Shown here piece after piece: positions 15,223 through 32,511 of a stretch of DNA of 64,000 bases (positions are counted from its first letter, which is position 1; every line of letters begins with the position of its first letter). Origin of the DNA: Janibacter sp. Soil728 (GTDB taxonomy: Bacteria; Actinomycetota; Actinomycetes; Actinomycetales; Dermatophilaceae); the NCBI RefSeq assembly GCF_001428305.1, contig NZ_LMRZ01000007.1, forward strand, positions 62,001 through 126,000, read 5' to 3'. A program made the translations under genes and the position numbers. The notes under the pieces were generated by a model that saw only the letters and a program-made list of their open reading frames with translations, searched no databases and was not told where the DNA came from.

Positions 15223-16075
15223 CCCCCTCATCACCAATGCCAGCGTCGTCGTCGACGACGTGCGCATGATCTACCGGGTCAATGCCGAGGAGGGCGACGG
15301 GCGCCGCCGCAGACTGTGGCACCGGGCCACCCAGGTGCACGCTCTCAAGGGTGTCAGCCTCGTCGCGCGCCAGGGCGAGACGATCGGCATCCTCGGGCAC
15401 AACGGATCGGGCAAGTCGACGCTGCTGCGGATCATCGCAGGCTTCGAGCCGCCCACCTCCGGGTCCGTCCTCGCGTCCAGCACCCCGACCTTCCTCGGCG
15501 TCAACGCCGCGCTCCAGCCCGAGCTCAGCGGCACGCGCAACGTGCGCCTGGGCCTGCTCGCCATAGGGCTGACGCCCAAGCAGGCGGACGCCGCGATGCC
15601 GGACGTCCTCGAGCTGGCCGCGCTCGGAGACGCGATCCACCGCCCGATGAAGACCTACTCCTCGGGCATGGGGGCGCGGCTTCGCTTCGCCATCGCTGCC
15701 GCGGCGCAGCCCGACATCCTGCTCATCGACGAGGCTCTGGCGACCGGTGACGCGGCGACCAAGGCCCGCAGCGACGAGCGGATGAAGACGATCCGCGAAC
15801 AGGCCGGCACGATCTTCCTCGTTTCCCACGCGGCACAGGTCATCGAGGAGATGTGCACCCGCGCGATCTGGCTGCACGAAGGACAGATCATCTCCGACGG
15901 CCCGGCGCACCAGACCGCGCGGGCCTACCGATGGTGGGCGTGGTGCGAGGCGAAGGGCGAGACCGACAAGGCTCAGGTCGTGCTCGACGACGTGATCTCC
16001 AGGTACTCCCGGGTCCGCGTCTCCCTCGCGGAGCCGCGCAACAAGCGGACGCGGAAGGCCCGGGCCCGGCGATGA
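15215..16075 (+). CDS. ABC polysaccharide exporter ATPase (Wzt/TagH-like), no glycan-binding domain
   Basis: A 286-residue ABC ATPase with Walker A GHNGSGKST, signature KTYSSGMGARLRF, Walker B DILLIDEAL and the H-loop LVSHAAQ. The YSSGM signature is typical of Wzt/TagH. It ends soon after the nucleotide-binding domain with a short basic tail, so it lacks the C-terminal carbohydrate-binding domain that reads chain ends in O9a-type Wzt. Chain length is therefore likely set by something else. GTG start overlapping wzm by 8 bp. Confidence 0.92.
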   Translation: MSDPLITNASVVVDDVRMIYRVNAEEGDGRRRRLWHRATQVHALKGVSLVARQGETIGILGHNGSGKSTLLRIIAGFEPPTSGSVLASSTPTFLGVNAALQPELSGTRNVRLGLLAIGLTPKQADAAMPDVLELAALGDAIHRPMKTYSSGMGARLRFAIAAAAQPDILLIDEALATGDAATKARSDERMKTIREQAGTIFLVSHAAQVIEEMCTRAIWLHEGQIISDGPAHQTARAYRWWAWCEAKGETDKAQVVLDDVISRYSRVRVSLAEPRNKRTRKARARR

Positions 16076-18354
16076 ACCTGCCCCGACCGGCAGACGGGTG
16101 GCGGCCCGTCGGCGCCGACTACTCGAAGCTGGATCCCGTGCGCGTGTGGTCCTGCCTGGACGACTTCGTGGCCGGCGCGACCCTCGAGCGGGGGGTCGAC
16201 GTCATCCGGTTGCCCAGCGGGGACCACCTCGACGTCCTCGTCGGGGGCGAGCCAGACGCCGAGGGCACATGCGTGCCAGCCTTCTTCGGGGGCGCCATGC
16301 CGACCCGCCCGCAGCACACGCCCCCCTTCTTCTCCGGTCACAACCTCGGGCGTCGCGCCGGTGGTCGGTACCTCGCCTTCTCCGACTCGCTCGTGGCGGC
16401 CGAGGTCGACCTCACGCTCGGCTGGTACGCCGGACGGGCCGCGGACCGTGCCCAGGACGCCGTCGCCACCGTGCTCGAGCTGGCCCACCAGCGGTGGGGA
16501 CGAGAGCTGTTGCTCGTCGGCGGATCCGGCGGTGGGTTCGCGGCGCTGGAGCAGCTGCGGCGCGCTCGTGTGCCCACGTCGGCTTTCGTGTGGAACCCCC
16601 AGACGGACATCCAGCGCTACATCAACACCTTCGCCGATGCCTATCTCCGCACGGCGCTGGGGTTGAGCCAGGTCGCGCTCGACCGGCTCTCCCCGGAGGC
16701 CAAGGCCGAGCGGGCAGGTGCGGCCGGCATCGAGCTCGCCGCTGCGGGTCGGCCGATCGCTGCCCACGGTGATGGAGGCCGTCTGCTCGTCCTGCAAAAC
16801 GCCACGGACTCCCACGTCGCCGACCACATGGGTCCCTACCTCGACCGGGCCGACCTCACCGACCGTGGCGCCGGGGTGTACTCCGACGGGCGCGAGACGT
16901 GGCTCATCGCCGACATGGGGAATGGGCACGCCGTCCCACCCCGCCAGGCCCTCGAAGCGGGTTTCCTCGGCATGCTGCGGGAGGGCGGCGACTCCCTTCG
17001 CCTCGCCGTGGACATGCGGGAGCGCCGCGTGGCGCCGCTCCCACCCCGGGCCAAGATGCCCGTCGACCTGCGGGGCGGGGAGGGCAACCTGCTGCGTGCC
17101 GGGCTGCGCGTCACCCAGGACGCGTGCGGTGTCGTGCGGGTCTGGCTGGGGCGACCCGAGCAGCTGACGGACCCGGTGCGCCTCAAGGTGCAGATCCGCT
17201 GGACGGACCGGGCCACGTGGCGTGATGTCGCGCCGAGCGGTCTGGCGGCCCTCGCACCCGGGGCGGTCGCGGCGACGGTCCACCTGCGTGACTGGTTCGG
17301 TCACACGGTCGACTCGGTGACGGTCCCGCTGGAACCGAGTCCCGGTCGGGGCATCAGCGTGGTCGGCAGCTGCGTCTCCCGCGACGCCTGCGAGCATCTG
17401 CCGCCGGGCATCTCGCTCGTCGCCTATGAGGCACGACAGAGCCTCATCAGCGCCTTCGCACCTCCGGTGCCGCTACCGCCCGAGCACCTGCGGCTGACCA
17501 GCCCCTTCCAGCAGCGGGTCTTCGAGGCCGACCACGCGAGTGCACTCCCGGACCGGGTCCGTGCCATGGCACCCGTCAGCGACCTGCTCGCCCATGACCT
17601 CGTCGACGAGCGCCTCGGGGTCTTCGTGCACCCGGACGGTGGCGTCACGACCCGCACCGTCGAGTGGCTCGCCCTGCACACTGACGGTGCGCCGCCGCAC
17701 GGCGCGCGGGTCGTCCCCTTCGGCAGCTCCGAGCATCTCGAGCTCTTCCGCTCCGCACTCGTGCGCTGGCGGGCCCTTCTCGAGGAGACCGGGCTGCTCG
17801 AGCGCACCGTGCTCGTCGCCCCACCGTGGGCCACCCGGACGACCGTGGGCAAACCGACGGGGGAGAGCTTCGGCATGGACGCCGGTGCGGGCAACGCCGC
17901 CATGGAGCCCTACGTCGCGAGCGTCCGGGAGATCGTCGGAGTCGACGTCGTCGGCAGCGACCTCGACACCGCCGCCGGTGAGTCCCACCGTTGGGGGCCG
18001 GCGCCTTTCCACTACGACGACGCCAGCGAGCGGGCGCTCGCCGCCGCTCTGGTCGAGCGGCTCCCGCACCCGCCGGCTCTCGGCGGCATCGTCGACGAGG
18101 GCGACGGCATCGCCGTGTCCGTGGGCCCATCAGGCCAAGGCTCGCTGGTCGTCGGCGTGACTCTGCCGCCCGGGGACAAGGTGGCCTTCCACCTCTTCCG
18201 TGGGGCCGAGCGCGTCGACATGACGGGGTACGACACCACACCCGGACGCAGCTACTGGCGCCTGGACCCGGGTCGCTACATCGTGCGGGTCTTCGTGCTG
18301 CTGCCCGACGGGACCAGGCTCTCCCGGGCCTCCGTCGGCGTCAACGTCGGCTGA
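16072..18354 (+). CDS. GxSGGGF alpha/beta hydrolase fused to a DUF6270 domain
   Basis: A 760-residue protein without a signal peptide or membrane helix. The N-terminal half is alpha/beta-hydrolase-like: nucleophile elbow GGSGGGF (Ser152), LGWYAG before it, NPQTD after it, a likely acid in QNATDSH (Asp246) and a likely base in GNGHAVPP (His286). A beta-rich linker follows (about 320-425). The C-terminal part is DUF6270: GSCVSRD at 432-438, EARQSLISAF, SPFQQR and a late WGPAPFHY. The GSC block and late His resemble SGNH esterase blocks I and V. ATGA overlap with the Wzt stop shows coupling to the exporter. I infer glycan acyl transfer or deacylation in the cytoplasm; no substrate is visible. 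Confidence 0.75.
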   Translation: MNLPRPADGWRPVGADYSKLDPVRVWSCLDDFVAGATLERGVDVIRLPSGDHLDVLVGGEPDAEGTCVPAFFGGAMPTRPQHTPPFFSGHNLGRRAGGRYLAFSDSLVAAEVDLTLGWYAGRAADRAQDAVATVLELAHQRWGRELLLVGGSGGGFAALEQLRRARVPTSAFVWNPQTDIQRYINTFADAYLRTALGLSQVALDRLSPEAKAERAGAAGIELAAAGRPIAAHGDGGRLLVLQNATDSHVADHMGPYLDRADLTDRGAGVYSDGRETWLIADMGNGHAVPPRQALEAGFLGMLREGGDSLRLAVDMRERRVAPLPPRAKMPVDLRGGEGNLLRAGLRVTQDACGVVRVWLGRPEQLTDPVRLKVQIRWTDRATWRDVAPSGLAALAPGAVAATVHLRDWFGHTVDSVTVPLEPSPGRGISVVGSCVSRDACEHLPPGISLVAYEARQSLISAFAPPVPLPPEHLRLTSPFQQRVFEADHASALPDRVRAMAPVSDLLAHDLVDERLGVFVHPDGGVTTRTVEWLALHTDGAPPHGARVVPFGSSEHLELFRSALVRWRALLEETGLLERTVLVAPPWATRTTVGKPTGESFGMDAGAGNAAMEPYVASVREIVGVDVVGSDLDTAAGESHRWGPAPFHYDDASERALAAALVERLPHPPALGGIVDEGDGIAVSVGPSGQGSLVVGVTLPPGDKVAFHLFRGAERVDMTGYDTTPGRSYWRLDPGRYIVRVFVLLPDGTRLSRASVGVNVG

Positions 18355-19111
18355 GCGAGGACCGGAGACCAGCAGCGAGGTGGGCGTAGGCCGCAGCGGT
18401 GTAGTGGAAGGGACTCGCCCCCCACTTGTGGTCCCGCGTGGACGCCGTGAGCTCCGCGGGAAGGCTGACCACCGGCCAGCCGAGGGCGCGGACGCGGTCG
18501 TAGTAGCGGCGGTACTTGACGTTTGCTCGGTGTGGAGGAAGATCCCAGTCGGGGATGTCGAGCGACTCGCCGTCATCCATGGTGCTGGCCCACTCCGTCT
18601 CCAGCAGGATGACCCGGTCGCTCAGCCCGAGCTCCGCGATGCCTGCGGCCAGACGGGCGACGGCCGGTGACCACAGCGCGAAGTGCTCGTCGGTGCCGAA
18701 GTCCACGCGGTGACCGTCGCGGGTCGCCGCGTCGCCCCCGGCCTGCCACAGCTCGGCGTGACGGCTCACGTAGCCGCCGCCGACCTCGATGACGCCGCCA
18801 CGCTCGTCGATGAGGTCGAGCACGAGCAGGTCGATCTCGTCGGCGCGGCGAGCGATCTCTGAGAGCGCATTGCCCTCGATGTCGCCCTGCACCATGCGCC
18901 GCTGGAAGGGGGACTCGATGTGGGTCAGCTGCGGCCAGACACCCTCGGCGGGACGGCCGGCGCTGATCGCGGACTGACGGGCCACGTAGGCGAGGAGCTC
19001 GTGGGTGTCAGCCATTGTCTCCAAGGTGTCCCGTGAGACGCAGCTGCCGTAGATGAAGGTACGGACCCGGCCCGACCCGGTGTCCTCCCGGGACGTGTCG
19101 TCCGTGCTCAT
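18341..19111 (-). CDS. Stand-alone DUF6270 protein
   Basis: A 256-residue protein. GSCVSRD is at residues 22-28, then VARQSAISAG, ESPFQRRMVQGD, LLVLDLIDERGG, and DHKWGASPFHY at 227-237. These blocks match the DUF6270 half of the 16072-18354 protein, and it carries little else. An SGNH-like esterase/acyltransferase role is plausible (Ser/Cys in GSC, Asp227/His236), but function is unproven. It is the second gene after the giant glycosyltransferase (ATGA overlap) and converges with the hydrolase-DUF6270 gene, the two stops overlapping by 14 bp. Confidence 0.75.
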   Translation of the reverse strand: MSTDDTSREDTGSGRVRTFIYGSCVSRDTLETMADTHELLAYVARQSAISAGRPAEGVWPQLTHIESPFQRRMVQGDIEGNALSEIARRADEIDLLVLDLIDERGGVIEVGGGYVSRHAELWQAGGDAATRDGHRVDFGTDEHFALWSPAVARLAAGIAELGLSDRVILLETEWASTMDDGESLDIPDWDLPPHRANVKYRRYYDRVRALGWPVVSLPAELTASTRDHKWGASPFHYTAAAYAHLAAGLRSSLSRR

Positions 19112-22100
19112 GCCCGACCGCCTGTGATGATCTCACTCAGTCTGGTGGTGGTGCGCTCGTGGGAGAAGGCCGTGTGCGCCTGCTCGACGTACGCCCGGGC
19201 GTCACGCTGCTCGCCGGCGATGCGCTCGACCATCGACTCGACGTCGGGGCTGATCCAGTCGCGGGGGTAGATGAGGTCGGAGCCGGGCCAGGCGAGCAGG
19301 GCCGGGAGCGCTCCGGACGCCGCGCCGTCGGCGACGGTGAGGTGGAAGGACTCCCAGTCGCTCGTCGACAGCGCGACGCCGATGCCCTGGTACCACTGCG
19401 CCATGTCGTCGCCGTGCGGGTCGAGGACCACGGTGCCGGGGTGCTCGGCGTTGAGCCGGTCGATGCGGGCGAACTGCTCGTCGTAGTAGGCCATCTCGTC
19501 GGGCCGCTGGGCCATCCACGGGTAGTCGGCCGGCGTCCTGCCCTTGATCCGCAGCGAGTAGTCGAGGCCGCGACCCCGCAGCCCTTCGAGGACGTCGAGG
19601 GCCCGGTCGAGCCGCTTCGATCGCGCGACGATGCCGACGAGGCCCAGCGTGGTCTCGACGCCCGGCAGCTTGGGTGCGTCCAGGCCCTCGAGGTCCACGG
19701 CGTTGGGCACGACGTGGGCCTTGCCCTCTGGGACGCCGTGGCTCGCCACTGCAGCATCGCGGATGAGCTCACCGACGAAGACGTAGGCGTCGACGCGCGA
19801 GTGCTTGATCGTCGACAGGTAGGGGCGGCGCAGCTCCTGCGAATGCACCCGCACGACCAAGCGCTGGCCCGGCATGACGTGCTGGCTGTACCAGACGGCA
19901 TTGCCCAGACCCCACTCGCAGACGACGATGTCAGCGCCCTGGAGCAGCTGGTTCGACCGCTCCTCGTCGTGGTTGGCGTGGTCGCGCCATTCGTCGACCT
20001 TCACCTCGTGCCCATGAGCGCGCAGGTCGCGGATCATGGCGCGGGCGAACTTCAGGTCGTGACCGGCCACGACGACCCGCAGCCGCCGCGGCGACGTCGC
20101 GTTCGTTGCCGGCTCCGCCTTCTCGCCCGCGCGGACGTGCGGCTCCGGCAGGGTGAGGTGGATTCCCTTCGCGTCGTCGCTCTCGAGCGCGCTCTCGTAG
20201 GGGTGCTGGCTGGCGTGGTGCGTGCGGATCAGGCTCCGGTGGACCAGCGCGGGCGCGGCCATCGGGGTGCGCATCTCGTGGGCGAAGGCGTCACCGGCCG
20301 CGTGGTCCGGGTCCACGGTGCCGCTGATGCGCTCCCAGTTGCCGAAGGCGCGGGCGTGCAGCAGGTCCTCCATACCGGTGCGCGCGGCGACCGGCTCGTC
20401 CAGGCGGGTGATGTAGTCGGCCGTGACGGCGGCGTAGAGGTTGCGGCCGTCCCACTCCAGCACATCGATACCGAGGCGGGTGAGCCGCTCGCGCGCCGCG
20501 GTGGCGTCGCCCACGACGAGCACGCGCGTCGGCAGGACTGACTGGTGGGCGAGGGAGTCGAGGACGTCGGTGCGGAAGTCGTCGACGACCGCGGCGTAGG
20601 TGGGCAGCACCTGCGCCCGGGTCGCGATGCCGGCCGTGCGGGTGAGCAACAACATCGCACTCGTCACCGTGTGCGAGCGCAGCACCGTGCGCATCTGGCG
20701 CCAGGCCTCGCGCAGGCGGGCCTGCGGGTCGCTCGACCACAGGCCGAGGGACGCGCGCCACACGTCGGCGTCGTTGACCGCGGGGATCGTCGGGCCGAGC
20801 GACTCGACGATGCCGCGGCCGGGACCGGAGAGCACGACGCCACCGCATGCCGCGACCTCGACGACCCGGCGGGAGAACATCGTCGGGGAGTCCGCGACCG
20901 AGTTGACGTTGAGGTTGGCCAAGTGTGACTTGTACGAGTCGATGACCGCGTCGTAGGGGAGGGATCCGCGCACGTTGCCGCGAAAGATCGCGGGGAAGTG
21001 GTACGGCGAGTCAGGGATAGCGGCCTGTCGGTCGTAGATGCTCAGCCCGAAGGGCTGGGCGACCGTGAGCACCCGGCTCAGCTCGGCCGACCGCTTCGCG
21101 TACCGGTCGCCGTAGTAGGTGCCGGCGTAGGCGACCGAGGGGTCGTACGGTCGGTTGCCCGGCAGCGGGTTGTGGATGAGCGGTTGGGCGTAGAAGGGCA
21201 GGCCGGACGCCGTGCGGACCGTGCCGACACCGGCGGCGAGGTAGCGCGGCACGCAGTTCGCGTCGGTGGTGAAGACGTGGTCACACAGCGAGGCGGCGGA
21301 GATGAAGCGCTCGATGTGGACCGGGTCCTCCTTGTTCCAGAAGACCGACGGGATGCCGAGCTCACGGGCCCGCGTGAGCAGGGCGACGATGTCGGCGAAC
21401 TCGTCATCGTCGTAGCGGCCGACCCCGCGGTGCCACTGGCCGTCGTTGCCCTTCCACGCCGACTCGACAAAGACGAGGTCGAGCCCGTCGAGCTGGTCAC
21501 GCCACCCCGCACGGTCGAGGGGCACCAGGTCGAAGGTCGGGCGCAGGGTCTCGGTCGTGAACTCGTCGGCGATGATGCCCACCCGTAGCGAGCGCAGCTC
21601 GCGGTCGGTGCTCGGGTCGTGCGCGGCGACGGCCTCGGTGGCTCGGGCGTGGGCGCCGCGGAAGGACTGCGCCACGCGGACCCAGGTGCGCTCGTCGATG
21701 GTCCACAACCGGCTGCGGCGACCCAGATCGGCGCGGAGATCCTCGTCCGCGAGCAGGGGACGCAGAGCGTCGGCGAGGGCGCGGGCGTCATCAGCGGGGA
21801 CGAGCACGGCGCGTTCGCCGTCCGCCCCGGCCAGCGTGCGGTGCGGGGAGACATCGGAGAGGACGACCGCCTTGGCGCAGGCGAAAGCCTCGAGCGGCTT
21901 GAGGGGGGAGACCATCTCGGTGACGGGCAGCGAGCGGCGCGGGCACGGCATGACGTCGAAGAGGCTGATCATCCGCTGCATCTCGCTCGCGGGAACCCGA
22001 CCGACGAACCGCACGGTGTCACCGAGGCCGAGGCCTTCGGCCTGCTTCTCCAGGGCCGGCTCGGCCGCGCCGGAGCCTGCGAGGACGAGCTGGGTGTCCA

Positions 22101-23706
22101 CCCCTTCGTCCCGGAGCAGGGCGACGGCCTCGATGAGCAGGTCGAGGCCCTCGTAGGGGACCATCGAGCCGGCGAAACCGATGACTGGGACGTCGGTGCG
22201 CACCCCGTGCTTCTTCGCATAGGCCTCGTCCTTGGGCAGCGGGACGAAGACCGTCGGGTCGACGGCGTTGGGCGCCAGAGTGATCTTGTCGCCCGGCACT
22301 CCCCGGCGGATGAGCTCCTGCCGGGTCTCCTCGGTGATCGCAAGGACCGCGTCGGCCTCGGACGCGACGAGGGTCTCGAAGTCGACCTGCTGCTGGTAGC
22401 GCTCGGTCGAGTCCCAGCCCTCCTTGCCGGAGGCCTCGGTCACCTCCCACAGGCCCCGCACCTCGTAGACGAAGGGGACCCCGACCCGGCGCGCCGCGAT
22501 GAGGGCGGCGAGCCCCGTGACGTGGTTGGAGGCGGACTGGATGACCGCCGGCCGGCGCAGCCGAGCCTCGCGGACGAAGGCGTCTGCGCAGGCAAGGATG
22601 TAGTGGTCGATCGGGGTCGAGCCCAGTCGCGGGCCGGGAAGGTGCGTGTACTCGACGTCGTCGAGCGTGACGACCTGGCGATGGGCCTTGGGGGCTTTCT
22701 TGTCGACCTGGCTGTCCCAGGGATAGCCGGCGCGGGCCACGACCGCCACGTCGACGCCGGCGTCGCCGAGGCCGGCCGCGACACCGCGGGTCCGGGTGGA
22801 GTACCCGTTGGTGTTGTAGGCGGGGGTTGAGTGGACGCAATACAGGACGCGTCCTGGCTCCGGCACGTAGGCGGCACCGGCGGAGCGGGGCGGCACGGGG
22901 ATGCCCTGCGCGCGCACCCGCGCGGCCGCGACCGCCCGGTCCATGAAGATGCGCTGCTTGGCGTCGAGCGAGGTCACGAGGCCGGGGTGCTCCGAGGCGA
23001 TGCGGTGGGCCTCGGTGATGGACCCGAGGCCGAACCACGCGCGGTTGAGCGCGTTGACGAGGTTGCCGGCGGTGGGGCGTTCGGCGAGCTCCGCGAGCAG
23101 TTCCTCGTAGGCCTTCGCCGAGGCGCGGGCGTGCTTAGGCTTGGCCAGCTGTGCAGGGACCTGCGCAGGTGCAGCCGCGGCGGCCTGGATCGGCGCGGGG
23201 GACGAAGGGGAAGCCGCCGCCTTCGTCGTGGGGGCCGGCTTGGCGCCGGGCCTGAAGACACGGCCGGGGGAGGTGAGGGCCTTGCCGACCCTCATCGAGC
23301 GGGAGGTACGGACCCGCTGCAGGTCCTCCTTGAGACGCGCGGTCTCGGCGCGGTACGCGCGCAGCGCTGCCTCGGCCGAGGCGAGCTCGGCGCGGGATCG
23401 GTCGGCGCGGGCGAGAGCGCCTTGGCGCTTCGTGTCGGCGGTGGCCAGGTCCGACTTGGCGGACTTGATCTTGGCCTCGACCGCATCGAGCTTCGACCTG
23501 AGGCCCTTGGCCTTGGCGGCTTGGCGACGAAGGGTCTGCAACTCTTCGAGTACTGCTGCCGGGTCGGAAACGATCTCTTCGAGAAGCTGGCGGGTCAACG
23601 CCTCGTCGTCCTGGAGTTCGTCTGGGTGCACGCACAGTCCTTCGGCTCGGCTCATGTCGTCGAGGGCCACCAAGTCCGCGCCGGCGACGTTGATCTCGCC
23701 GTGCAC
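19108..23706 (-). CDS. Giant multidomain glycosyltransferase with N-terminal coiled coil
   Basis: A 1532-residue protein with no membrane helices. Residues ~40-135 are a Lys/Glu/Ala-rich predicted coiled coil (EELQTLRRQAAKAKGLRSKL onward), then a Pro/Ala linker. A GT4 domain follows (about 285-690; LKPLEAFACAKAVVLSDVSP), then a CgeB/DUF3880-type domain (about 710-1060; DLVFVESAWKGNDGQWH, FWNKEDPVHIERF). Next is a region resembling a degenerate GT2 (about 1070-1200), then a last GT4 (about 1215-1530). The CgeB part closely resembles that of the 34343-36196 protein. Start uncertain: GTG at 23706 (used) or ATG at 23655. A TAGTCT box lies 17 nt before 23706. Confidence 0.82.
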   Translation of the reverse strand: MHGEINVAGADLVALDDMSRAEGLCVHPDELQDDEALTRQLLEEIVSDPAAVLEELQTLRRQAAKAKGLRSKLDAVEAKIKSAKSDLATADTKRQGALARADRSRAELASAEAALRAYRAETARLKEDLQRVRTSRSMRVGKALTSPGRVFRPGAKPAPTTKAAASPSSPAPIQAAAAAPAQVPAQLAKPKHARASAKAYEELLAELAERPTAGNLVNALNRAWFGLGSITEAHRIASEHPGLVTSLDAKQRIFMDRAVAAARVRAQGIPVPPRSAGAAYVPEPGRVLYCVHSTPAYNTNGYSTRTRGVAAGLGDAGVDVAVVARAGYPWDSQVDKKAPKAHRQVVTLDDVEYTHLPGPRLGSTPIDHYILACADAFVREARLRRPAVIQSASNHVTGLAALIAARRVGVPFVYEVRGLWEVTEASGKEGWDSTERYQQQVDFETLVASEADAVLAITEETRQELIRRGVPGDKITLAPNAVDPTVFVPLPKDEAYAKKHGVRTDVPVIGFAGSMVPYEGLDLLIEAVALLRDEGVDTQLVLAGSGAAEPALEKQAEGLGLGDTVRFVGRVPASEMQRMISLFDVMPCPRRSLPVTEMVSPLKPLEAFACAKAVVLSDVSPHRTLAGADGERAVLVPADDARALADALRPLLADEDLRADLGRRSRLWTIDERTWVRVAQSFRGAHARATEAVAAHDPSTDRELRSLRVGIIADEFTTETLRPTFDLVPLDRAGWRDQLDGLDLVFVESAWKGNDGQWHRGVGRYDDDEFADIVALLTRARELGIPSVFWNKEDPVHIERFISAASLCDHVFTTDANCVPRYLAAGVGTVRTASGLPFYAQPLIHNPLPGNRPYDPSVAYAGTYYGDRYAKRSAELSRVLTVAQPFGLSIYDRQAAIPDSPYHFPAIFRGNVRGSLPYDAVIDSYKSHLANLNVNSVADSPTMFSRRVVEVAACGGVVLSGPGRGIVESLGPTIPAVNDADVWRASLGLWSSDPQARLREAWRQMRTVLRSHTVTSAMLLLTRTAGIATRAQVLPTYAAVVDDFRTDVLDSLAHQSVLPTRVLVVGDATAARERLTRLGIDVLEWDGRNLYAAVTADYITRLDEPVAARTGMEDLLHARAFGNWERISGTVDPDHAAGDAFAHEMRTPMAAPALVHRSLIRTHHASQHPYESALESDDAKGIHLTLPEPHVRAGEKAEPATNATSPRRLRVVVAGHDLKFARAMIRDLRAHGHEVKVDEWRDHANHDEERSNQLLQGADIVVCEWGLGNAVWYSQHVMPGQRLVVRVHSQELRRPYLSTIKHSRVDAYVFVGELIRDAAVASHGVPEGKAHVVPNAVDLEGLDAPKLPGVETTLGLVGIVARSKRLDRALDVLEGLRGRGLDYSLRIKGRTPADYPWMAQRPDEMAYYDEQFARIDRLNAEHPGTVVLDPHGDDMAQWYQGIGVALSTSDWESFHLTVADGAASGALPALLAWPGSDLIYPRDWISPDVESMVERIAGEQRDARAYVEQAHTAFSHERTTTRLSEIITGGRA

Positions 23707-23759: not shown

Positions 23760-24692
23760 GTGCGGGAAGGTTGGAGATTGGGTTCGGCGATTGGCTTCAC
23801 AACTCTTGAAGAGGCTGGATCCGGGGGCCTGAACGCTCCAGTCAACCGCATAGACAACCCACGCGACTGCCAGCCGGTCGGGAACTCGCCCGTCTCCCGA
23901 TGGCAACTGGCCACCGGTGACGGAGTGCTCGATTTCTTGGTGGTCTACAAGAGGGCAGGCGCGCCCTTGGTCTGCAGCTTCCACGGTGCTCTCGATCGCG
24001 AGAAGTACGAGCTCCCTCGATTCGAGCGCATGGCATCGCTGGTTGCCATGGACGTCAATTCCGTGTACGTCGCCGATCCGCTGCTGGCCCTTGACGACAA
24101 GTTGCAACTCGCATGGTTCGAAGGCGGCAGGGGATCCCGCCTAACCCGCGATATAGCCGCCGTGGTTGAGCACCTGAAAGCCAGTACGAGCTCGCGGGCG
24201 GCGTTGCTCACCGGCTCGTCGGGAGGCGGGTTCGCATCCTTGCAGGTCGCCCCGCACGTTCCGGGTTCGGTGGCGGTCGTCTTCAACCCGCAGACCACCA
24301 TCGGCGGGTATCTCGCCGGAGGGACCGGTCATGGCGCCAAGCGGGACTATCTTCGAGCCGTCTGGCCTGACGAGCACGCCGCCATCGGAGGCAAGGTGGA
24401 GGCACTCGAGGGTCCTCTGGGCTTCGAGTCCCTCACAGATCCTCGGACTACCGTTTGGCACCGGTATGAGTCGCCCGTCTCCTGCTCGATCGTCTACTGC
24501 AACAATCGCAACGACTTCCATGTGACGGACCACTATCAGCCTTTCGCGGATGCGATCACACGAGGCAACAACAAGGCCAAGATGTATGTTCTCGAGTACC
24601 CAGGGGGGAACGGCCACATGCCACCGTCACCTGAACAGTTCGAGCTTGGGTTGGCTCTGGGCTTGCGCTTGGCGACCAAGGAGGCCCCATGA
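23760..24692 (+). CDS. Stand-alone GxSGGGF alpha/beta hydrolase
   Basis: A 310-residue protein matching the N-terminal half of the 16072-18354 protein by motifs. The nucleophile elbow is TGSSGGGF (Ser154), preceded by LQLAWFEGG and followed by FNPQTT. The acid candidate lies in NNRNDFHVTDH and the base in GGNGHMPP. No signal peptide, so probably cytoplasmic. First gene of a rightward operon, overlapping the next by 4 bp. Base composition from here to ~31.2 kb looks less GC-rich than the flanks. GTG at 23760 is used; TTG at 23778 with GGAAGG upstream is an alternative start. Confidence 0.7.
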   Translation: MREGWRLGSAIGFTTLEEAGSGGLNAPVNRIDNPRDCQPVGNSPVSRWQLATGDGVLDFLVVYKRAGAPLVCSFHGALDREKYELPRFERMASLVAMDVNSVYVADPLLALDDKLQLAWFEGGRGSRLTRDIAAVVEHLKASTSSRAALLTGSSGGGFASLQVAPHVPGSVAVVFNPQTTIGGYLAGGTGHGAKRDYLRAVWPDEHAAIGGKVEALEGPLGFESLTDPRTTVWHRYESPVSCSIVYCNNRNDFHVTDHYQPFADAITRGNNKAKMYVLEYPGGNGHMPPSPEQFELGLALGLRLATKEAP

Positions 24693-25111: not shown

Positions 25112-25112
25112 C

Positions 25113-27152
25113 ATGAGTGCTCTCGTCAACATCATCGTCCAGCACCCACCTGTTCCGGGGTCAGATGCGTGGGCTGCCCTCACGGCCAGTGCGCAGTCGG
25201 GCCACGTCGAGGTGTCCCTCCTGCTGCCGGGTGAGGGGCGGTCACGTTACGTGGACGTGCCGGCGGGCGTCTCTATCGTGGATCAGGGCGACCTGTCACC
25301 GACCCAAGGTGTCAACCTTGCGGTTGGCCTCAGCAGCAGCGACATCGTCCTCGTCCTGGAGGGCGAGACCATGCTCGAAGGCCGAGCAGTCGAACCCATG
25401 GTTGAGCTCGCCGATGGTTGTGCCGGACGCCAGTGGGCCGTCCTTGACCGCCGCGTCGACGCAGGGCAGGGAATCCGCTCGGCCTCGCCTTCAGCCACTC
25501 CCGGTGGGGCACTGCTCTGCGACCGGGAGACCTTTCTTCTGCTGCGGGGTCTTGACGAGTCGGTTCACACCGCGGTGGGGCTGCGGGACCTGACAAGGCG
25601 GGCACGGGACTTCGGTGTCCCCGTCCGCGCTGTGGAGGGCACCGATCTCTTCGTGACCCGCTTTCCGTCCAGCTACGAGTCGTCGATCTGGCACGAGCCA
25701 GCTGCGACACTGAACAAGACCTACGCCGAGGTGGACGCCCGCGAGGAGATCTTCGTCAACCTCCGGGATTGGGCGGTCCCCGTGAGTCTGCGTCAGCCGC
25801 TGGTGTCGGTAGCGATCTCGACCAGGAACCGAGCGGGCTTCCTGCGCGACTCCTTGCAGTCCGTTCTCTTCCAAACCTTCCAGGACTTCGAGGTCGTGGT
25901 TGTCGACGACGGCTCGACGGATGACTCGGCGCGGCACGTCGTGGCTGAGCTCGCGGATCCGAGGATCACCTACCTGCGGCAGGAAGCCCGGGGGATTTCC
26001 GCTGCCCGCAATCTGGCCGCGGACAAGAGCGCTGGATGGTTCACGGCAGTGCACGACGACGACGACATCATGCTGCCGTGGCGCCTTGAGAAGGGCTTGG
26101 CGACCTTTCGCCGAGGTGTCGACGCCACCTATGGGGCGTGGGTCAACTTCGACGAGAAATCCGGAGAGTTGCGGCGGTTCCTCACCAAGAAAGACTTCGG
26201 TGTCGCGCTGAATGCCTTCTCGGGTCAGGGCCCGGGGCACGGGACCTGGACCCTCCCGACTCACCTCATCCGCTCGAACCGATATGACGAGGGCCTCACC
26301 TCTTCCGTCGATCACAACTTGGCAACCCGCTTGGCCTGGAACGGGGTCAGATGGCGGCACACCGAGGACGTGCAGTACCTCAGACGAGTTCACGCTGGTC
26401 AGATCTCGAATGTCGAGGCCGCTACGCAGAAGGCGGGACACATCCTCACGATCTTCGCCAACACCTTGTCCGCGGGCCCGGCCGATGTTGCGGCGCTGAA
26501 GGCGGCCGGGAAACAGTTGCACTACCCCAAGATCGGAGAGGGTCAGGACCTCTTCCAGACCTATGGCCCTTGGCTGCCTGACGACCTCGTGGTTCGCCAG
26601 GCGAAGGTGACCGGCAGCGTGACGCAGCGGCTCTTCGAGCTCGACATGCCGCCTGTCCTCAACTACATCCTCGAAGAGCGCGACGCCCAGACCGGAAGGC
26701 TGCGGACCGAGATCGGTGAGATCGGTGAGATCTCGTTCGCGGACCTCGTCGAGTTCCGCCGTTGCGGGGTGCCTGAGCTTCGACTGACGGCGCAACTTCG
26801 ATCCTCCGACGAGGCAAACGAGCACGCGTTGCCGGTGGCTTCCGCTTCAGCCTTCGAGAGGCTGGCGGCGCTGCTTCGGACTCGGGCTCCCGAGCGGAGC
26901 TGCTTGGTGCTCCAGACTCCGGACGACGGGTTCACCGCTCCTTCCTTCGGTGAGGCCTATGCCGCGATCCGAGTGGCAGCTGCCAGCAGGTTCGACGGGA
27001 GAGTCAAGTTGCTCGGCTTCTTCTTCGCTGACGACGACGCCGCGCTGAAGGCCCTTCGGTGGATGCATCGGCAGCATCCGACAGTGCTAACGCATCTGGT
27101 GACGACTGGGCGCCCCGCCCCTTCCATGATCACCTTGGGAGAGGAAGGCTGA
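25113..27152 (+). CDS. GT2-family glycosyltransferase, multidomain
   Basis: A 679-residue protein. The first ~220 residues are a divergent region with a weak GT-A look (LVNIIVQHPPVPGSDAW, SSDIVLVLEGETML). A canonical GT2 domain begins at about residue 230: LVSVAISTRNRAGFLRDSLQ, VVVVDDGSTDDS, GISAARNLA and the metal-binding AVHDDDDIMLPWR. The last ~180 residues are unrecognised, with an acidic patch GEIGEISF. It would transfer a sugar from a nucleotide donor in the cytoplasm. ATG at 25113, 1 bp after the upstream stop. Confidence 0.82.
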   Translation: MSALVNIIVQHPPVPGSDAWAALTASAQSGHVEVSLLLPGEGRSRYVDVPAGVSIVDQGDLSPTQGVNLAVGLSSSDIVLVLEGETMLEGRAVEPMVELADGCAGRQWAVLDRRVDAGQGIRSASPSATPGGALLCDRETFLLLRGLDESVHTAVGLRDLTRRARDFGVPVRAVEGTDLFVTRFPSSYESSIWHEPAATLNKTYAEVDAREEIFVNLRDWAVPVSLRQPLVSVAISTRNRAGFLRDSLQSVLFQTFQDFEVVVVDDGSTDDSARHVVAELADPRITYLRQEARGISAARNLAADKSAGWFTAVHDDDDIMLPWRLEKGLATFRRGVDATYGAWVNFDEKSGELRRFLTKKDFGVALNAFSGQGPGHGTWTLPTHLIRSNRYDEGLTSSVDHNLATRLAWNGVRWRHTEDVQYLRRVHAGQISNVEAATQKAGHILTIFANTLSAGPADVAALKAAGKQLHYPKIGEGQDLFQTYGPWLPDDLVVRQAKVTGSVTQRLFELDMPPVLNYILEERDAQTGRLRTEIGEIGEISFADLVEFRRCGVPELRLTAQLRSSDEANEHALPVASASAFERLAALLRTRAPERSCLVLQTPDDGFTAPSFGEAYAAIRVAAASRFDGRVKLLGFFFADDDAALKALRWMHRQHPTVLTHLVTTGRPAPSMITLGEEG

Positions 27153-27153
27153 G

Positions 27154-27861
27154 ATGCACGCCGCAACAACTTGGGACAGCTCCGGTCGGACGACGGTCGG
27201 GATCTCACGTGACGTCGATTCTGAGATGACCGCGCTCTTGGTCGTGGATGCGCCGGTCACCCCCTCCGCGGACGTGGCCGTGGTGGCCATCGCCCTTATC
27301 GCCCCGCACCGGCTCGTCGAAGGAATGACTGTCGGAGGAGCCGGCGTCAGCGGTCCGGTTGCTCGCGCACTGCTGCGCGAGTTCGGGGATCAAGGGTTGA
27401 CCATGTCCTCGGACCGCCAACTGCGAGAGACTGTGGGAGGAGTTGGTCTGACAGCAGTCCTCGACTGGTCCGGCCAGGGATGGTCAACAGGCTCTGGAGA
27501 CGGCGAGCGCAGGAGCATTGTCATTGCTCCGGTTCCGCTCGGTACGTACTCCGGACGGCTGTTCTCCACGGGACGGTTTGTCCTCGCCGCGTCCGCTCAT
27601 GATGGTCGCAGCGCGGAGACTACAGCGGATCTCGCCGCCCAGATCGTGACGACCCTGCTTGTTGCCGAGAGACTTCGGTGCGACGAGATCCTCATTCCGC
27701 GTCTTGGGTTGGTGGCCGACCCGGACTTCGAGACGCGTGCCAGAGCGCTCACCTGTCCGTTGGGAGTCACATTGTCGTTCGTGGATTCCTTCGCTGTCGC
27801 TGGGACCGTTGGCATCGACCGAGCGCATGGCCTCCGCGCACCCGGAGGTGAACTTCGTTGA
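27154..27861 (+). CDS. Unrecognised protein between GT2 and GT4 genes
   Basis: A 235-residue protein with no family I can name. It contains alternating hydrophobic strands (TALLVVDAPVTPSADVAVVA), glycine-rich turns and no signal peptide. It starts 1 bp after the GT2 stop and ends in a TTGA overlap with the next GT4 gene, where its own GGAGGTG sequence serves as that gene's ribosome site. Tight coupling says it works with these transferases; its role is unknown. Confidence 0.55.
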   Translation: MHAATTWDSSGRTTVGISRDVDSEMTALLVVDAPVTPSADVAVVAIALIAPHRLVEGMTVGGAGVSGPVARALLREFGDQGLTMSSDRQLRETVGGVGLTAVLDWSGQGWSTGSGDGERRSIVIAPVPLGTYSGRLFSTGRFVLAASAHDGRSAETTADLAAQIVTTLLVAERLRCDEILIPRLGLVADPDFETRARALTCPLGVTLSFVDSFAVAGTVGIDRAHGLRAPGGELR

Positions 27862-28937
27862 GTCACGTCGTCATGCCCGTCCGCACAGTGGCCGACTGGG
27901 GCGGAGTGCACGAGTGGACCGTAGACGCGGCTAGTACGCTGCGAAGGCACGGACACCGCGTCACCATGGTGGGGTCTGGAGAGACCTTCGAGAGCCGGGC
28001 GCGGGCCACAGGCGCGGAGTTCCTCACGGTGGACTGGACCCGTCTGGACGAGGCAACGACCCGCATCGTGTCCGAGACCTCGGATGTGGACCTCTTCTTC
28101 GCTCATGCCCCGCAGGCGCGCATGGTTGCGCTCGACGCAGGACGACGCATAGGGGCTCCGGTTCACGTGATGTGCCACGGCGCGTACCACGACTTCATGT
28201 ACGAGTGGGCCGGCGAAGCAGAGTCCGTGGCCGCGGCCAGCCCTTCGTTAATGTACTTCGTGCAGCAGATCGGCAAGGTCGAGCCGTGGAAGTGCGCACT
28301 GGTGGCCAACGGCGTGGACGAAGCGGTCTTCGACCTCCCGATTCATGACATCGAGGCGAAGGTTGCATCAGGAACGGGACGCATCGTCACGGCCTCGAGG
28401 CTCGCTGTCGACAAGATCCGGCAGATCGACGTCGTCCGCGACGCGTTAGCTGCGTGTCTCAAGGCGTATCCGGACGTCGCGTGGGAGATCGATGTCTACG
28501 GTGATGGGCCGGAGCGCGCCTACTTCGAGAGTGCCTACAGGCTCATGCTCGGCGACCTCGGGGCGGGCAAGGTGAACTTCCACGGGTGGGTTCCCCCGTC
28601 GTCGATCCCCTCTGCACTGAACGCCGCAGCCGTCTCGGTGATGGCGGGGATGGGAGGCGTCCGATCCGTTGCTGCCGGGACGCTGACGATCGGCGCCGGT
28701 GCTCGAGACAACCTAGGGGTCCAAGCGGGACGCAACCTGCGTGCCGGCATCTTCAGCAACTTCGGGGATCACGGTTGCCCGAGATTTACGCCAACTCCGG
28801 TCGACCGTGACCTCGAAGACCTCCTCAAGCCTGGCGCGTACAGCGAGACCTTGGAGCTGAATCGAAGCATCCTGCGGCGGACGAATGCACAGGGAGTCGT
28901 CGATGGGCAAATGCTCGGGGCGCTCCAAATCATCTAG
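27858..28937 (+). CDS. GT4-like glycosyltransferase
   Basis: A 359-residue GT-B type protein. The N-terminal Rossmann half includes WGGVHEWTVDAASTLRRHGH, like GT4 acceptors. The C-terminal half has GRIVTASRLAVDKIRQIDVV and YGDGPERAYFESA, typical of the donor domain. The usual E-x7-E region is poorly conserved (GVRSVAAGTLTIGAGARDNL). TTG start at 27858, supported by GGAGGTG 7 nt upstream and a TTGA overlap. Its TAG stop shares the palindrome CTAG with the stop of the convergent gene. Confidence 0.75.
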   Translation: MSHVVMPVRTVADWGGVHEWTVDAASTLRRHGHRVTMVGSGETFESRARATGAEFLTVDWTRLDEATTRIVSETSDVDLFFAHAPQARMVALDAGRRIGAPVHVMCHGAYHDFMYEWAGEAESVAAASPSLMYFVQQIGKVEPWKCALVANGVDEAVFDLPIHDIEAKVASGTGRIVTASRLAVDKIRQIDVVRDALAACLKAYPDVAWEIDVYGDGPERAYFESAYRLMLGDLGAGKVNFHGWVPPSSIPSALNAAAVSVMAGMGGVRSVAAGTLTIGAGARDNLGVQAGRNLRAGIFSNFGDHGCPRFTPTPVDRDLEDLLKPGAYSETLELNRSILRRTNAQGVVDGQMLGALQII

Positions 28938-31195
28938 GCTCGCCCGGCGGTTCCGCGCCCGTCTGCAAAGCTTCTGACGTCCGCGACAATGCGCTGGGCG
29001 CGTCGCAGGAAGGTGTGCTGAGCGCGGATTCTCGCCGAGGTGGTCGCCAACGTAGCTGGATCAGGCCGATGGCCCGTCAGCAGCGCTTCGAGTTGGTGAA
29101 GGTTCTCGTAGGTTCGGACGGAACTGTCGAAGATGTCGTCGATGCCCGATACCGGGTCCGAGATGCAGGCAGCTCCTGCCGCCGTGGCATCGAAGAGCCG
29201 ATTCGACACGAAAGCGTGGTTGGCCATGTCTTCCCAGTGATCGTTGAGTACCCACGCGGCCTGGCCATAGGCGAAGGGGAGTTGTTCGTTGGGGAGGTAA
29301 TGACCCCCGAGAAGTGACGACGGGATGAACTCGTCCCAACCCGCTCCGTACACGAGCGGCTCGAGTCCCAGCTGGAGGCAGTCGTTCACGATCTTCCGGC
29401 CGCCTGGGCGTGCGTTACCGACGAAGAGCAGGCGGCCCGCCGCAGGATGACGAACGTGCGCCGTCGATGGATGGAAGCGTCCGGCGTCCGTGCACTGGAG
29501 GAGGGGTGTGATGTCGATATCCGCCCAGGGTGCCCACTGTCGGGAAGCGGCGTACACCAGATCGGCGGACAAGAGTTCGTCGCGTCCAACCTCTTCTGGG
29601 TGACTGATCACCCAGACGACGTTGAGGGCGCCGTCCCGCGCAGGGAGCGGAGTGGTGCCTCGTAGCTGGACAACGACGTCGGCGTCGCGAGTCTGAGGCT
29701 CTTCCCTTCGCACCACGGTTGCGGTGTGCCCCATCTGTCGGAAAGCGTGGGCCAGAGCAATCGCATAGTGATAGTCGCCCCAAAGCAACTCGTTCGGACC
29801 ACGCGTGGCGGACGTTTCGATGTCCACCGTGAGCACGTCACCGAGGCGCCGAGTCGGTGAGTCGTCTCCGACGGGTCGGTTCGGAGGTTCCAGTCGTGAG
29901 GGCTGGAGGGGATAGCTAGTGACGGCCAGCGAGGTGAGAGTCAGCTGGGCGTCTGGCTCGGCGCCGCTGAGCCCGATCTCCTGAATCTTCATCCCGGCCG
30001 GGATGTACACCTTGGACGTTCGAGGCGCCGATCCGCTGAGCGGGACTGTCGCCGTGTACCCCAACTCGAAGGGCGTCAGGCCGTAGTGTTCCACGCCCGC
30101 CGGGTGGGGGCGGACAGACCGAAATTCGACGCGTGCCGTGTTGTTCGCGTCATCATCGTCGGTCGCGATCGTGATGTCGATGGTTTCTCGCAGTCCGTCG
30201 ACCAGAGGGAAGATGGACCCACCACGCAGGGCTGCCTTCCCACGGAAGAGTTCCCGCCTGTGCGGTGAAGGGCTGGAGCAGATCAGCGACTCGAGTTCCT
30301 CGCGTGACCGAACCACAGCGCTTCCGAGGACCTGAGGGAACTGCTCGCCCGTCGCGACGAGACTGAGCAGAGAGTCGAGGAATCGAAGGAGATAGCCCGG
30401 CGGAGGTGCGGTGTGTCCGGCACCCCAGTGCTGGACCAACGTCTGGACGTTCCCGTGTGGCGCCGCTGCCTCGATCAGGGGTTGAAGATGGTCCAGAAGG
30501 TGATGCTCGTCGGTGGTGTTGGTGAGGCAGTAGGCGAAGTTTGCAGGACCGTCCGCGTAGTCAACGCACACGTCGTGCCGAAGATCGGCCGTGTTGACCT
30601 GACCGTCGACCGTCCAGCAGCGCTCGAGAAATGCGTCCTTGAGGGTGTCGGAGTGCCGCAGGATGTCCGTCTGGGCATTGACAGCCACTGCAAGGCTCCC
30701 GGGGGACGACGCGCTGTACCGCAGCGCCGCGAAGCCGCCACCACTGATGCCGAAGTAGAGCTCACGTCGTGCCCCGGACAGCTCGACGAACTTGTCGATG
30801 ACCTGACGTAGCTCCGACGTGTAATCGAAACCGATTGCACCCGCGTACCAGGCCAAGCTCATCGTGCCGCTCAGGTACAGCGTCGCGTCGTGTACGAAGA
30901 GGAAGTTGGCCCGCGCTGCTCGTCGCCACTGGGCGAACATGGACATGCCGTTGAAACCGGGGCGAATGCCTGGGGCGGCGAAGCCCGAGGCGTTGAAGAC
31001 GACGATGAGTGTGTCGGCACCCGTGTCCCAATACACCGCATCGGTGAAGACGCCGGCACTGGTTGGAATGGCGTAGAGACCGGAGGGCGCCTCCGCCAGC
31101 GTTAGAAAGTCACCCAACGACTCGAACTCGAAATGCGGCTCCCGGATGCGTATGACGTCCCGAGTCAACCCATCAGGGTACTGCTGTGGTTCCAT
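28934..31195 (-). CDS. GxSGGGF hydrolase fused to a CgeB-like glycosyltransferase
   Basis: A 753-residue two-part protein. The N-terminal hydrolase part has SLAWYAG, the elbow GISGGGF (Ser151), NAQTDI, an acid candidate in NTTDEHHLLDH and a base in GAGHTAPPP. A beta-rich linker (about 300-430) follows. The C-terminal third is a GT-B half of the CgeB/Glyco_trans_1_2 type: GDYHYAIALAHAFRQMGH, FVGNARPGGRKIVND and NRLFDATAAGAACISDPVSG. This links the hydrolase family physically to glycosyl transfer. A TAAGTT box lies 8 nt before the ATG, suggesting a leaderless transcript of its own. Confidence 0.75.
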   Translation of the reverse strand: MEPQQYPDGLTRDVIRIREPHFEFESLGDFLTLAEAPSGLYAIPTSAGVFTDAVYWDTGADTLIVVFNASGFAAPGIRPGFNGMSMFAQWRRAARANFLFVHDATLYLSGTMSLAWYAGAIGFDYTSELRQVIDKFVELSGARRELYFGISGGGFAALRYSASSPGSLAVAVNAQTDILRHSDTLKDAFLERCWTVDGQVNTADLRHDVCVDYADGPANFAYCLTNTTDEHHLLDHLQPLIEAAAPHGNVQTLVQHWGAGHTAPPPGYLLRFLDSLLSLVATGEQFPQVLGSAVVRSREELESLICSSPSPHRRELFRGKAALRGGSIFPLVDGLRETIDITIATDDDDANNTARVEFRSVRPHPAGVEHYGLTPFELGYTATVPLSGSAPRTSKVYIPAGMKIQEIGLSGAEPDAQLTLTSLAVTSYPLQPSRLEPPNRPVGDDSPTRRLGDVLTVDIETSATRGPNELLWGDYHYAIALAHAFRQMGHTATVVRREEPQTRDADVVVQLRGTTPLPARDGALNVVWVISHPEEVGRDELLSADLVYAASRQWAPWADIDITPLLQCTDAGRFHPSTAHVRHPAAGRLLFVGNARPGGRKIVNDCLQLGLEPLVYGAGWDEFIPSSLLGGHYLPNEQLPFAYGQAAWVLNDHWEDMANHAFVSNRLFDATAAGAACISDPVSGIDDIFDSSVRTYENLHQLEALLTGHRPDPATLATTSARIRAQHTFLRRAQRIVADVRSFADGRGTAGRA

Positions 31196-31209: not shown

Positions 31210-31284
31210 CGCATCCCGGCCGTCCTGGCCGGTTCAGTGGGACTGCTGGAGCAAAGGTAGTCCAACCTACGAGGGGGATCCATC

Positions 31285-31314: not shown

Positions 31315-31384
31315 TCGGTGCCTGCGTCCCGCGCGTACCTGCCGCCATCTCGATATGACGAAACAACGTCAGCGCCAACCAGAG

Positions 31385-32511
31385 CTATGGAGCACGTGAG
31401 CAAGCGTCTCCCTCCACCATCCGGCGCTGGAAGGCGCTCAGCAGGACCGACGGATCGAAGGGCGGCTCTCCGGCCGGGCCGAAGGCGCTGATGAGGCTCT
31501 GCCGGGCGACGAAGGCATCGAGGCGGAAGAGGCCGGGGTCGAGGAAGGCGAAGGTGTCCCGCGTGGCCTGGCTGCCCGTGACGAGCACCCGCACCCGCTG
31601 CGGGGTGCGGGTGAAACCGCCCGGCACGGTGACGATCTCGTGCAGGAACCCATCACGCAGGTGTGCTCGCACACCTACGGCCCGAGGATCTGCGTCGAGC
31701 AGCACGAGGGCGTTGTCACGCTGCAGGTGGCTGGAGATGACCGTGCCGTGACGGTCGACGACCTCGAACCGGGTGGTCACACCGCCGTAGCGGGAGGGGC
31801 GCCCCTCCCAGACGACGGTAGCTCGCGCGCTCCCGTCGGCCTCCCGGGTCGCGGCGATGCTCGTGCGGCCGGCGATGTCGTCGACCTCGCCGCGGAGGTC
31901 GCTGCCGGGACATCGCAGTGACGCTTGCCCGCTCCAGCCCGAGCGCGACGCAGAGGTAGTCGAGGACGGGACCCTCGTCGTAGTCGAGCAGGTCGGTCTG
32001 CGGGTTCCACACCATGGCTGAGGCGGGGACGTCGAGCCGCGCGCCGAGGAGCATGCAGGAGAAGCCGGCACCCGAGCCGCCCGCGAGCAGCACGGGGCGG
32101 TCGACCCGGCGCTGAAGATCCTCGAGCAGGCGAGGTGCCCCTGGACGTCCTCGCCGGCGCGCCCGGCGTACCAGCCCAGACGCAGCACGGGGTCGACGGT
32201 GAGCGTCGGGTCGCTGATCGCGACGAAGGGGGTTTGCAGACTCATACCCAGGCCGATGCCGGAGAAGAACGGGCCGGGTCTCCCTTCCCGCTTGGACACC
32301 GCCCCGGACAGGACGAAGGGCACGCCACGACCGGTTGCGATCGTCGTGAAGTCGCCGGCAAGCATCATGTCGATGTGAGCGCCGGAGGGAGCATGACGAC
32401 GTGCACCCCGGTCGACCATGTCGGGGCGGCGACGAACTGCTCGATGGACTTCCAACGGAGCACGTCCGGTAGGTACCTCGTGTAGTCGCTGTCCCCGGGC
32501 AGGGTGCTCAT
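31385..32511 (-). pseudogene. Decayed hydrolase-DUF6270 fusion gene
   Basis: Read leftward, the protein matches the 16072-18354 fusion but changes frame at least three times. MSTLPGDSDYTRYLPDVLRW starts at 32511. The frame shifts near 32385 (HVVMLPP then SGAHIDMMLAGD), again near 32100-32140 (LGWYAGRAG then LLAGGSGAGF), and again near 31915 before GEVDDIAGRTSIAA. The DUF6270 part begins VTGSQATRDT (Cys of GSC lost), keeps FVARQSLISAF and SAFQRRMVEGD, then stops at 31385 without the WGxxPFHY end. So it is both frameshifted and truncated. Its ATG overlaps the upstream gene's stop (ATGA), showing it was once a working operon member. Confidence 0.8.

Follow-up and report, generated by a model that had tools for sequence, protein, structure and literature searches.

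What do four related hydrolase modules do in one glycan locus of Janibacter sp. Soil728? The window, that is, the whole stretch of DNA analysed here (64,000 nucleotides, positions 62,001 to 126,000 of contig NZ_LMRZ01000007.1), is part of one contig of a 3.64-Mb genome, and a preliminary description made from its letters had noted modules with a shared GxSGGGF motif between 16072 and 32511. We propose that these modules are probably cytosolic O-acyltransferases of the alpha/beta-hydrolase fold, acting on a glycan exported by a Wzm/Wzt-like ATP-binding cassette (ABC) transporter. Profile and Pfam searches placed all four modules where they had been described, together with the fusions of A and C and the decay of D (gene calls are a codon-based heuristic):

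Gene A, 16072..18354, + strand: 760 residues; hydrolase module (about 16072-17025) and DUF6270/SGNH-like domain (about 17359-18015), separated and followed by short regions
Gene B, 23760..24692, + strand: stand-alone alpha/beta-hydrolase module
Gene B residues, by position: Ser154 at 24219-24221; Gln178 at 24291-24293; Asp252 at 24513-24515; His286 at 24615-24617
Gene C, 28934..31195, - strand: 753 residues; hydrolase module (about 30296-31195) and glycosyltransferase domain PF13524 (about 28985-29359)
D, 31385..32511, - strand: decayed hydrolase-DUF6270 gene, with DUF6270 truncated and motifs in two frames

Homology, fold, conserved catalytic residues, architectures and neighbourhoods were all established by computation. 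With B as the query against its own genome, we found four places, all inside the window: B itself, C (expectation value, E, 9.6e-13), A (1.9e-11) and a piece of D (0.012). A profile from a 92-row alignment found C at 3e-70, B at 4e-69, A at 5e-54 and two pieces of D at 1.3e-14 and 1.8e-9, and no further copy of the module in this genome. Hence, chance is excluded as the source of the likeness of A, B and C. Judged by their sequences, A, B and C are true homologues with complete catalytic residues, and D is a decayed relative. The Pfam scan identified DUF6270 in A (PF19786, E 1.9e-55) and the glycosyltransferase domain in C (PF13524, E 1.1e-13); a piece of D matched only the first 62 of the 222 DUF6270 positions. 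Both profile matches to D end at profile position 191, upstream of the parts with Asp and His, and the Asp/His part of D was not found in a six-frame search. The hydrolase parts of A, B and C matched no Pfam or NCBIfam family above cut-off.

The 92 rows are three from the window and 89 of 98 listed rows, each of which had to match 190 or more profile positions. A GTDB scan with the pattern GxSGGGFA[ASV]L gave 314 matched stretches and 170 relatives, the best 80 of which, in 78 loci, were kept as L035-L112. The conservation counts exclude the nine rows left out: four near-duplicates with all residues, three near-duplicate copies with Ser in place of the catalytic Asp, and two divergent copies free of the catalytic residues. 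The motifs W(Y/F)xG, GxSGGGF, N(P/A)QT and NxxD.(.)H are common to A, B and C, as described before; GxGHxxPP, which had been ascribed to every intact copy, is present in A and C, and B has GNGHMPP, shorter by one residue. The 19-residue hydrophobicity maximum was 1.32 for A, 1.28 for B and 1.19 for C versus 2.49 for the Wzm control. With no strongly hydrophobic stretch, which is not a signal-peptide prediction, A, B and C look cytoplasmic, in keeping with the location first suggested.

The structure model of B (predicted local distance difference test score, pLDDT, 89.8; predicted template-modelling score, pTM, 0.89) is an alpha/beta hydrolase. In the DSSP secondary-structure assignment, Ser154 follows strand 148-153 and precedes helix 155-166, and Asp252 and His286 come after strands 243-249 and 275-280, respectively. 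The model thus predicts a nucleophile elbow with the acid and His after later strands, which are the canonical alpha/beta-hydrolase positions, and the Ser-Asp-His triad previously suggested from the motifs is supported. We ran the Foldseek comparison that had been suggested, with the model of B against the PDB, and found 776 matches at E <= 0.001, confirming the fold; the 50 listed are esterases, lipases and other alpha/beta-hydrolase-fold proteins. Among these 50, the capsule O-acetyltransferase CsaC (6yuo_A, rank 5, E 1.2e-8) had the top target-normalised template-modelling (TM) score, 0.67, and the Asp2-like Gap2 (6oyc_B, rank 35) had the top query-normalised TM score, 0.56.

The residues around this putative active site are strongly conserved. 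The 28 rows collected without any sequence pattern all have Gln178, Trp119 and Asp106, and at least 90% of them keep each of Ser, Asp and His; in L030, Cys replaces Ser. The 92 rows keep Ser in 92, Gln in 90, Asp in 88 and His286, Trp119 and Asp106 in 92 each; the count for Ser, like the conservation of Gly among the main hits of L035-L112, follows in part from the search pattern, outside which the other five residues lie. The spacing from Ser to Gln is 24 in 82 of the 90 rows with Gln, and a further His stands at Asp+3 in 65 of 88 rows, only at +2 in 20 and at neither place in 3.

This arrangement resembles that of CsaC (also SacC or MynC), from the capsule locus of Neisseria meningitidis serogroup A, whose capsule is exported by an ABC exporter. 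Both have the alpha/beta-hydrolase fold and the Ser-Asp-His triad, and CsaC too has a Gln at Ser+24 (114 to 138) and a His close behind its Asp (198 to 201). The NPQT motif aligns with APQA of CsaC, the profile's PQ falling on P137-Q138 and the elbow Ser on 114 (counted from chain residue 95), and Tyr144 falls on the conserved Tyr184 of the module family (75/92); this residue numbering agrees with PMC7501274. That paper describes an acetyl-CoA (acetyl-coenzyme A)-dependent acetyltransferase in which the triad Ser114-His228-Asp198 is extended by His201 and by Gln138, the latter said by its authors to be what 'appears to be a unique element of CsaC'. At the sequence level, the module carries a CsaC-type Gln/His extension (Q138, H201). 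The two differ in that the sequence similarity is remote and CsaC is one small chain (255 residues in the PDB); moreover, the module has Trp119 at the spacing of CsaC Tyr79 (Ser-35) in 61 of 92 rows, and the alignment has a gap at the acceptor-binding Arg148 of CsaC.

A second relative is Asp2 of the accessory Sec system (PF16929/TIGR03712), which had been offered merely as a relative in idea. The resemblance proved to be real remote similarity, found in PDB, Pfam and NCBIfam alike, and CsaC joins it: against 177635 PDB sequences, the 92-row profile ranked Asp2 (6lnw) first at E 2.7e-5, followed by SacC/CsaC in rows 2 and 3 (0.008 and 0.014). PF16929 touches 12 of the 92 members (best E 7.5e-6, Pfam) and TIGR03712 touches 15 (best 3e-5, NCBIfam, E 0.1). 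The likeness lies in the stretch FxG...SDPxL...YxG...GxSxGxFxAL, with SDPxL...YxG upstream of the elbow, and in glycan O-acetylation, which we propose for the module and which Asp2 performs on N-acetylglucosamine (GlcNAc) of serine-rich-repeat glycoproteins in coordination with export (PMC5578698). Asp2 differs in its length (about 510 residues), in its tie to accessory Sec and in that the match ends just before the NPQT glutamine. Membership of the Asp2 family was rejected, the scores listed lying far under the curated cut-offs and Asp2 having 0 matches in the own genome; remote kinship is kept. The earlier remark that no SecY2 is visible also stands: the own genome gave only a below-cut-off SecY-like match (163.8 versus 249.6 bits), as did 9 of 14 control genomes, and SecA2 was not searched for.

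The third family is XcbB/CpsF (NF033892), which touches 34 of the 92 members (best 9.8e-6, NCBIfam, E 0.1); the window proteins gave no match to it at E 0.1. It has a similar length (291 positions), and its matches span residues 125-184, 8-173 and 111-176 in three of the ten members listed, the first and last covering the nucleophile elbow to NPQT. It is a capsule-biosynthesis family and differs in a score far below cut-off and in having no assigned function. OatC (CssE) and E. coli K15 ORF5 are alpha/beta-hydrolase capsule O-acetyltransferases of capsule loci with a GXSXGG elbow triad (PMC7387560), and we liken the module to their Ser-Asp-His triad in the elbow by description, not by sequence. 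From these comparisons, the module family is akin to the CsaC, Asp2 and XcbB families and not a member of the latter two. Our literature search found no paper that treats CsaC, Asp2 and XcbB-type families jointly, save a capsule nomenclature paper (PMC3647402).

What accompanies the module elsewhere? We counted 99 distinct hydrolase reading frames in 77 loci: 71 hold the module alone, nine have DUF6270 before it, six have a heparinase II/III-like domain before it and two after it, and 11 have another long extension; the frames run from stop to stop, and some of these 11 may be read-through of non-coding sequence. DUF6270 lies somewhere in the stretch at 24 of the 77 loci, a heparinase-like domain at 14 and at least two modules at 21. 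Fusions with the hydrolase ahead of DUF6270 were confined, among those seen, to the own family (window A, L006-L012, L025 and L026), and heparinase II/III-like fusions, in both orders, in L072, L099, L067, L084, L107 and L111. The usual partners of the module are DUF6270 and heparinase II/III-like proteins, each fused to it in both orders. A glycosyltransferase fusion was found in window C and in one (L095) of 20 long proteins scanned from other genomes, which does not support, as stated, the suggestion that each module is perhaps paired to one transferase. Our literature search found nothing on such fusions. In three Burkholderia sp. loci (L070, L071 and L073), the gene immediately after the hydrolase is heparinase II/III-like, and beyond it lies one for a large DUF6270 protein; L070 and L073 have a further heparinase II/III-like gene before the hydrolase.

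The 92-row profile found the module in 22 of 186 same-family genomes and in 7 of 396 genomes of a phylum sample, the own genome included in each; its presence in the own genus is patchy (7 of the 16 genomes listed, own one included). The GTDB relatives are mostly from Actinobacteria and alpha-, beta- and gamma-proteobacteria, with single records from Aliarcobacter, Syntrophus, Chlorobiaceae and Myxococcota. Seventeen genomes have both DUF6270 and the module, versus 3.0 expected (from 22 and 25 of 186; Fisher p 4.5e-14, without kinship correction); a further 5 have the module without DUF6270 and 8 have DUF6270 without the module. In 16 of the 17, the two lie within 15 kb, as measured between match starts of the stronger profile matches. 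Genes flanking the module, 142 after 17 of 159 were dropped as more than 85% identical, included Glycos_transf_1 (23/142), Glycos_transf_2 (16/142), GSCFA (8/142) and polysaccharide pyruvyl transferase (5/142). By comparison, each glycosyltransferase family reached at most 1 of 77 random genes among the first 25, ordered by members, of 86 families; this control covers 16 stretches of the own genome only, and the flanking genes come from other loci. Seven of the eight GSCFA (PF08885) genes are from loci L072 on, perhaps in the place of DUF6270.

Within the window, the modules stand among genes for glycan assembly and export:

14338..15222, + strand: Wzm-like ABC exporter permease (NF050109 at 2.7e-9 and NF050053 at 6.9e-7, both below cut-off)
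15215..16075, + strand: Wzt/TagH-like ABC exporter ATPase (NF010065 best at 2.8e-50, NF050108 at 9.4e-45, below the cut-offs)
18341..19111, - strand: a DUF6270 gene on its own, convergent with A, predicted to have an SGNH/GDSL-like fold
19108..23706, - strand: 1532-residue multi-domain glycosyltransferase, syntenic with A and DUF6270
32508-34346: asparagine-synthase-like protein (TIGR01536 at E 0.052; no Pfam match at E 0.1)

The start of A (16072) overlaps the stop of the Wzt-like gene (16075) by four bases, ATGA. The order Wzm, Wzt, A, DUF6270 and 1532-residue glycosyltransferase is kept in all three same-genus relatives examined, in which A is 53-72% identical over the protein and has a stand-alone DUF6270 beside it; a large glycosyltransferase gene lies upstream of Wzm in two of the three, and the third stretch ends too early. 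No heparinase domain was matched among the 18 window proteins scanned with Pfam.

Because the chains of glycans exported by Wzm/Wzt-type ABC transporters are assembled in the cytoplasm, any decoration ahead of export calls for enzymes that work in the cytosol and use a soluble donor. We propose that the glycan of this locus would be assembled inside the cell, decorated in the cytosol and then exported by the ABC transporter. An acyl-CoA, probably acetyl-CoA, would acylate Ser154, with the Ser-His-Asp triad steadied by an extra, CsaC-like Gln178-His arm, and a sugar hydroxyl of the glycan would accept the acyl group from the acyl-serine. The hydroxyl or sugar served would differ from copy to copy. 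The SGNH-type DUF6270 fused to the module in A, and once in D, would attach or cleave a second ester, and the glycosyltransferase fusion of C could couple sugar addition to acylation. The acyl donor, the acceptor and the direction of reaction in this scheme are inferred. The heparinase-like partners elsewhere might be, speculatively, lyases or uronate epimerases; folds related to heparinase-like domains include uronate epimerases.

Several results weigh against acyl transfer to an exported glycan. The sequence link to CsaC is weak, with ordinary hydrolases close behind (a carboxylesterase is next, at 0.029), and a profile of the 28 rows ranks the plain hydrolase 3fsg first (0.094), ahead of SacC (0.31) and Asp2 (0.51); Asp2 and SacC lead only with the 92-row profile, which covers more phyla. 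The best score among the ten members listed is 20.2 bits versus a cut-off of 210.75 for TIGR03712, and the best among those listed for XcbB/CpsF is 25.1 versus 125. CsxB/XcbB is itself listed as of unknown function, and the serogroup X capsule is not known to be O-acetylated. Ordinary esterases head the E-ranked Foldseek list. Four of the 92 rows, second copies from Brevibacterium/Brachybacterium, have Ser at the Asp column, as do three further copies among the nine rows left out, and two divergent second copies (L037:9075-9905 and L093:9008-9820) lack Ser, Gln, Asp and His. The heparinase II/III-like fusions could mean breakdown of the glycan, not synthesis. CsaC can itself hydrolyse acetyl-CoA without an acceptor. 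Hence, fold and triad do not settle the direction of the reaction.

This last point opens the way to the chief rival, which concerns the trimming that the preliminary description had named beside acyl transfer: the modules would be cytosolic glycan esterases that de-acylate intermediates so that a fused or adjacent heparinase-like lyase or SGNH enzyme can act, as in turnover or quality control before export. The eight heparinase-like and nine DUF6270 fusions among the 99 frames, the predicted SGNH/GDSL-like esterase fold of DUF6270 and the preponderance of esterases and other hydrolases in the Foldseek list would all suit such enzymes. We nevertheless hold de-acylation unlikely, since the two best solved relatives of the 92-row profile are O-acetyltransferases, the CsaC-type Gln is kept in 90 of 92 rows, the O-acetyltransferase PatB is among the structural matches of DUF6270, and the window genes stand with glycosyltransferases and an exporter and without a matched heparinase domain. 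Acyl transfer is thus the half of the earlier suggestion that sequence, fold and context back, with trimming left as its rival.

A different transfer seems improbable to us: the Ser would take a group other than acetyl (amino-acyl, succinyl, pyruvyl-like or a glycan fragment) and ligate it to a glycan or protein. XcbB/CpsF, touched by more than a third of the members, is without an assigned reaction, and CsxB failed as a transition transferase on the 3-deoxy-D-manno-oct-2-ulosonic acid (Kdo) acceptors tried (PMC11666461); against this, we found nothing that points to a specific alternative donor, and CsaC and Asp2 are reported as acetyltransferases. That the modules are ordinary metabolic alpha/beta hydrolases, present in a glycan locus by chance, is very improbable: weak matches to generic alpha/beta-hydrolase Pfam models speak for it, but the glycan-gene neighbourhoods compared with the control, the recurrent fusions and the failure of any Pfam or NCBIfam family to exceed its cut-off for the hydrolase parts speak against it.

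Cytosolic O-acylation before export therefore remains our preferred reading of the modules. A wider idea, which we offer tentatively, is that the GxSGGGF family is a clan of cytosolic glycan O-acyltransferases in which CsaC, Asp2 and XcbB/CpsF would be specialised outliers on one alpha/beta-hydrolase core, the Gln arm of CsaC would be ancestral and the SGNH and heparinase-like fusions would be single-chain glycan editors. If so, each fused editor would install one ester and, ahead of ABC export, install or remove another or work alongside it. The proposal offers a functional hypothesis and a testable active site for a family that neither the Pfam nor the NCBIfam copy used models; it places CsaC, Asp2 and possibly XcbB/CpsF around one catalytic core and provides DUF6270 with a partner and a predicted SGNH-like fold. 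In many bacteria, exported surface glycans may be tailored by such a set of cytosolic enzymes.

How did the copies come together? A, B and C do not form a single expanded set; we found them in three different clades of a FastTree tree (28 rows, midpoint-rooted, local support values): A with hydrolase-DUF6270 proteins, B with stand-alone relatives and C with a third group. Local duplication was rejected on these clades and on the D pieces, which, searched separately, among the loci compared are nearest L009 and L010, from other genera (45-61% identity versus 39-42% to A). The hydrolase-first DUF6270 clade (support 1.0) holds ten fused rows and L013, in which DUF6270 is in a separate frame, and the DUF6270-first clade (support 0.994) holds three rows. 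Since the two fusion orders fall in two separate clades, the hydrolase and DUF6270 were probably joined more than once.

Third-position guanine-plus-cytosine (GC) content differs along the window: the genes of 23760-31195 have 0.74 (B), 0.79, 0.69, 0.79 and 0.75 (C), and A, DUF6270, the 1532-residue gene and the asparagine-synthase-like gene have 0.88-0.92. The genes between the 1532-residue glycosyltransferase and D were not seen in the relatives' fetched stretches, save weak hydrolase cross-hits. This lower GC and this absence are as expected of a later-acquired cassette running from B to C. A phage origin was considered, and one scan of B against viral_contigs found no relative.

DUF6270 was also modelled (pLDDT 94.8), with an SGNH/GDSL-like fold. 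Its structure search against the PDB gave 20 matches at E <= 0.001, with titles such as GDSL-like lipase, acylhydrolase, aryl esterase and PatB O-acetyltransferase, and His228 is invariant in 29 rows. The model suggests an SGNH/GDSL enzyme, its Ser close to the N-terminus and its His close to the C-terminus; no paper naming DUF6270 was found in our literature search. Of the DUF6270 domains, that of L098 has an altered GSC motif, and those of L085, L096 and L103 (9263-9961), which are fused to the hydrolase, have none and may be inactive.

Divergent copies of the hydrolase recur as well. Those with Ser at the Asp column are the second copies of L048, L049, L050, L051, L052, L053 and L060. In L037 and L093, the copy free of catalytic residues stands directly before an intact one and is perhaps a dead partner subunit. 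In L134, a homologue of the asparagine-synthase-like protein adjoins a hydrolase-DUF6270 gene.

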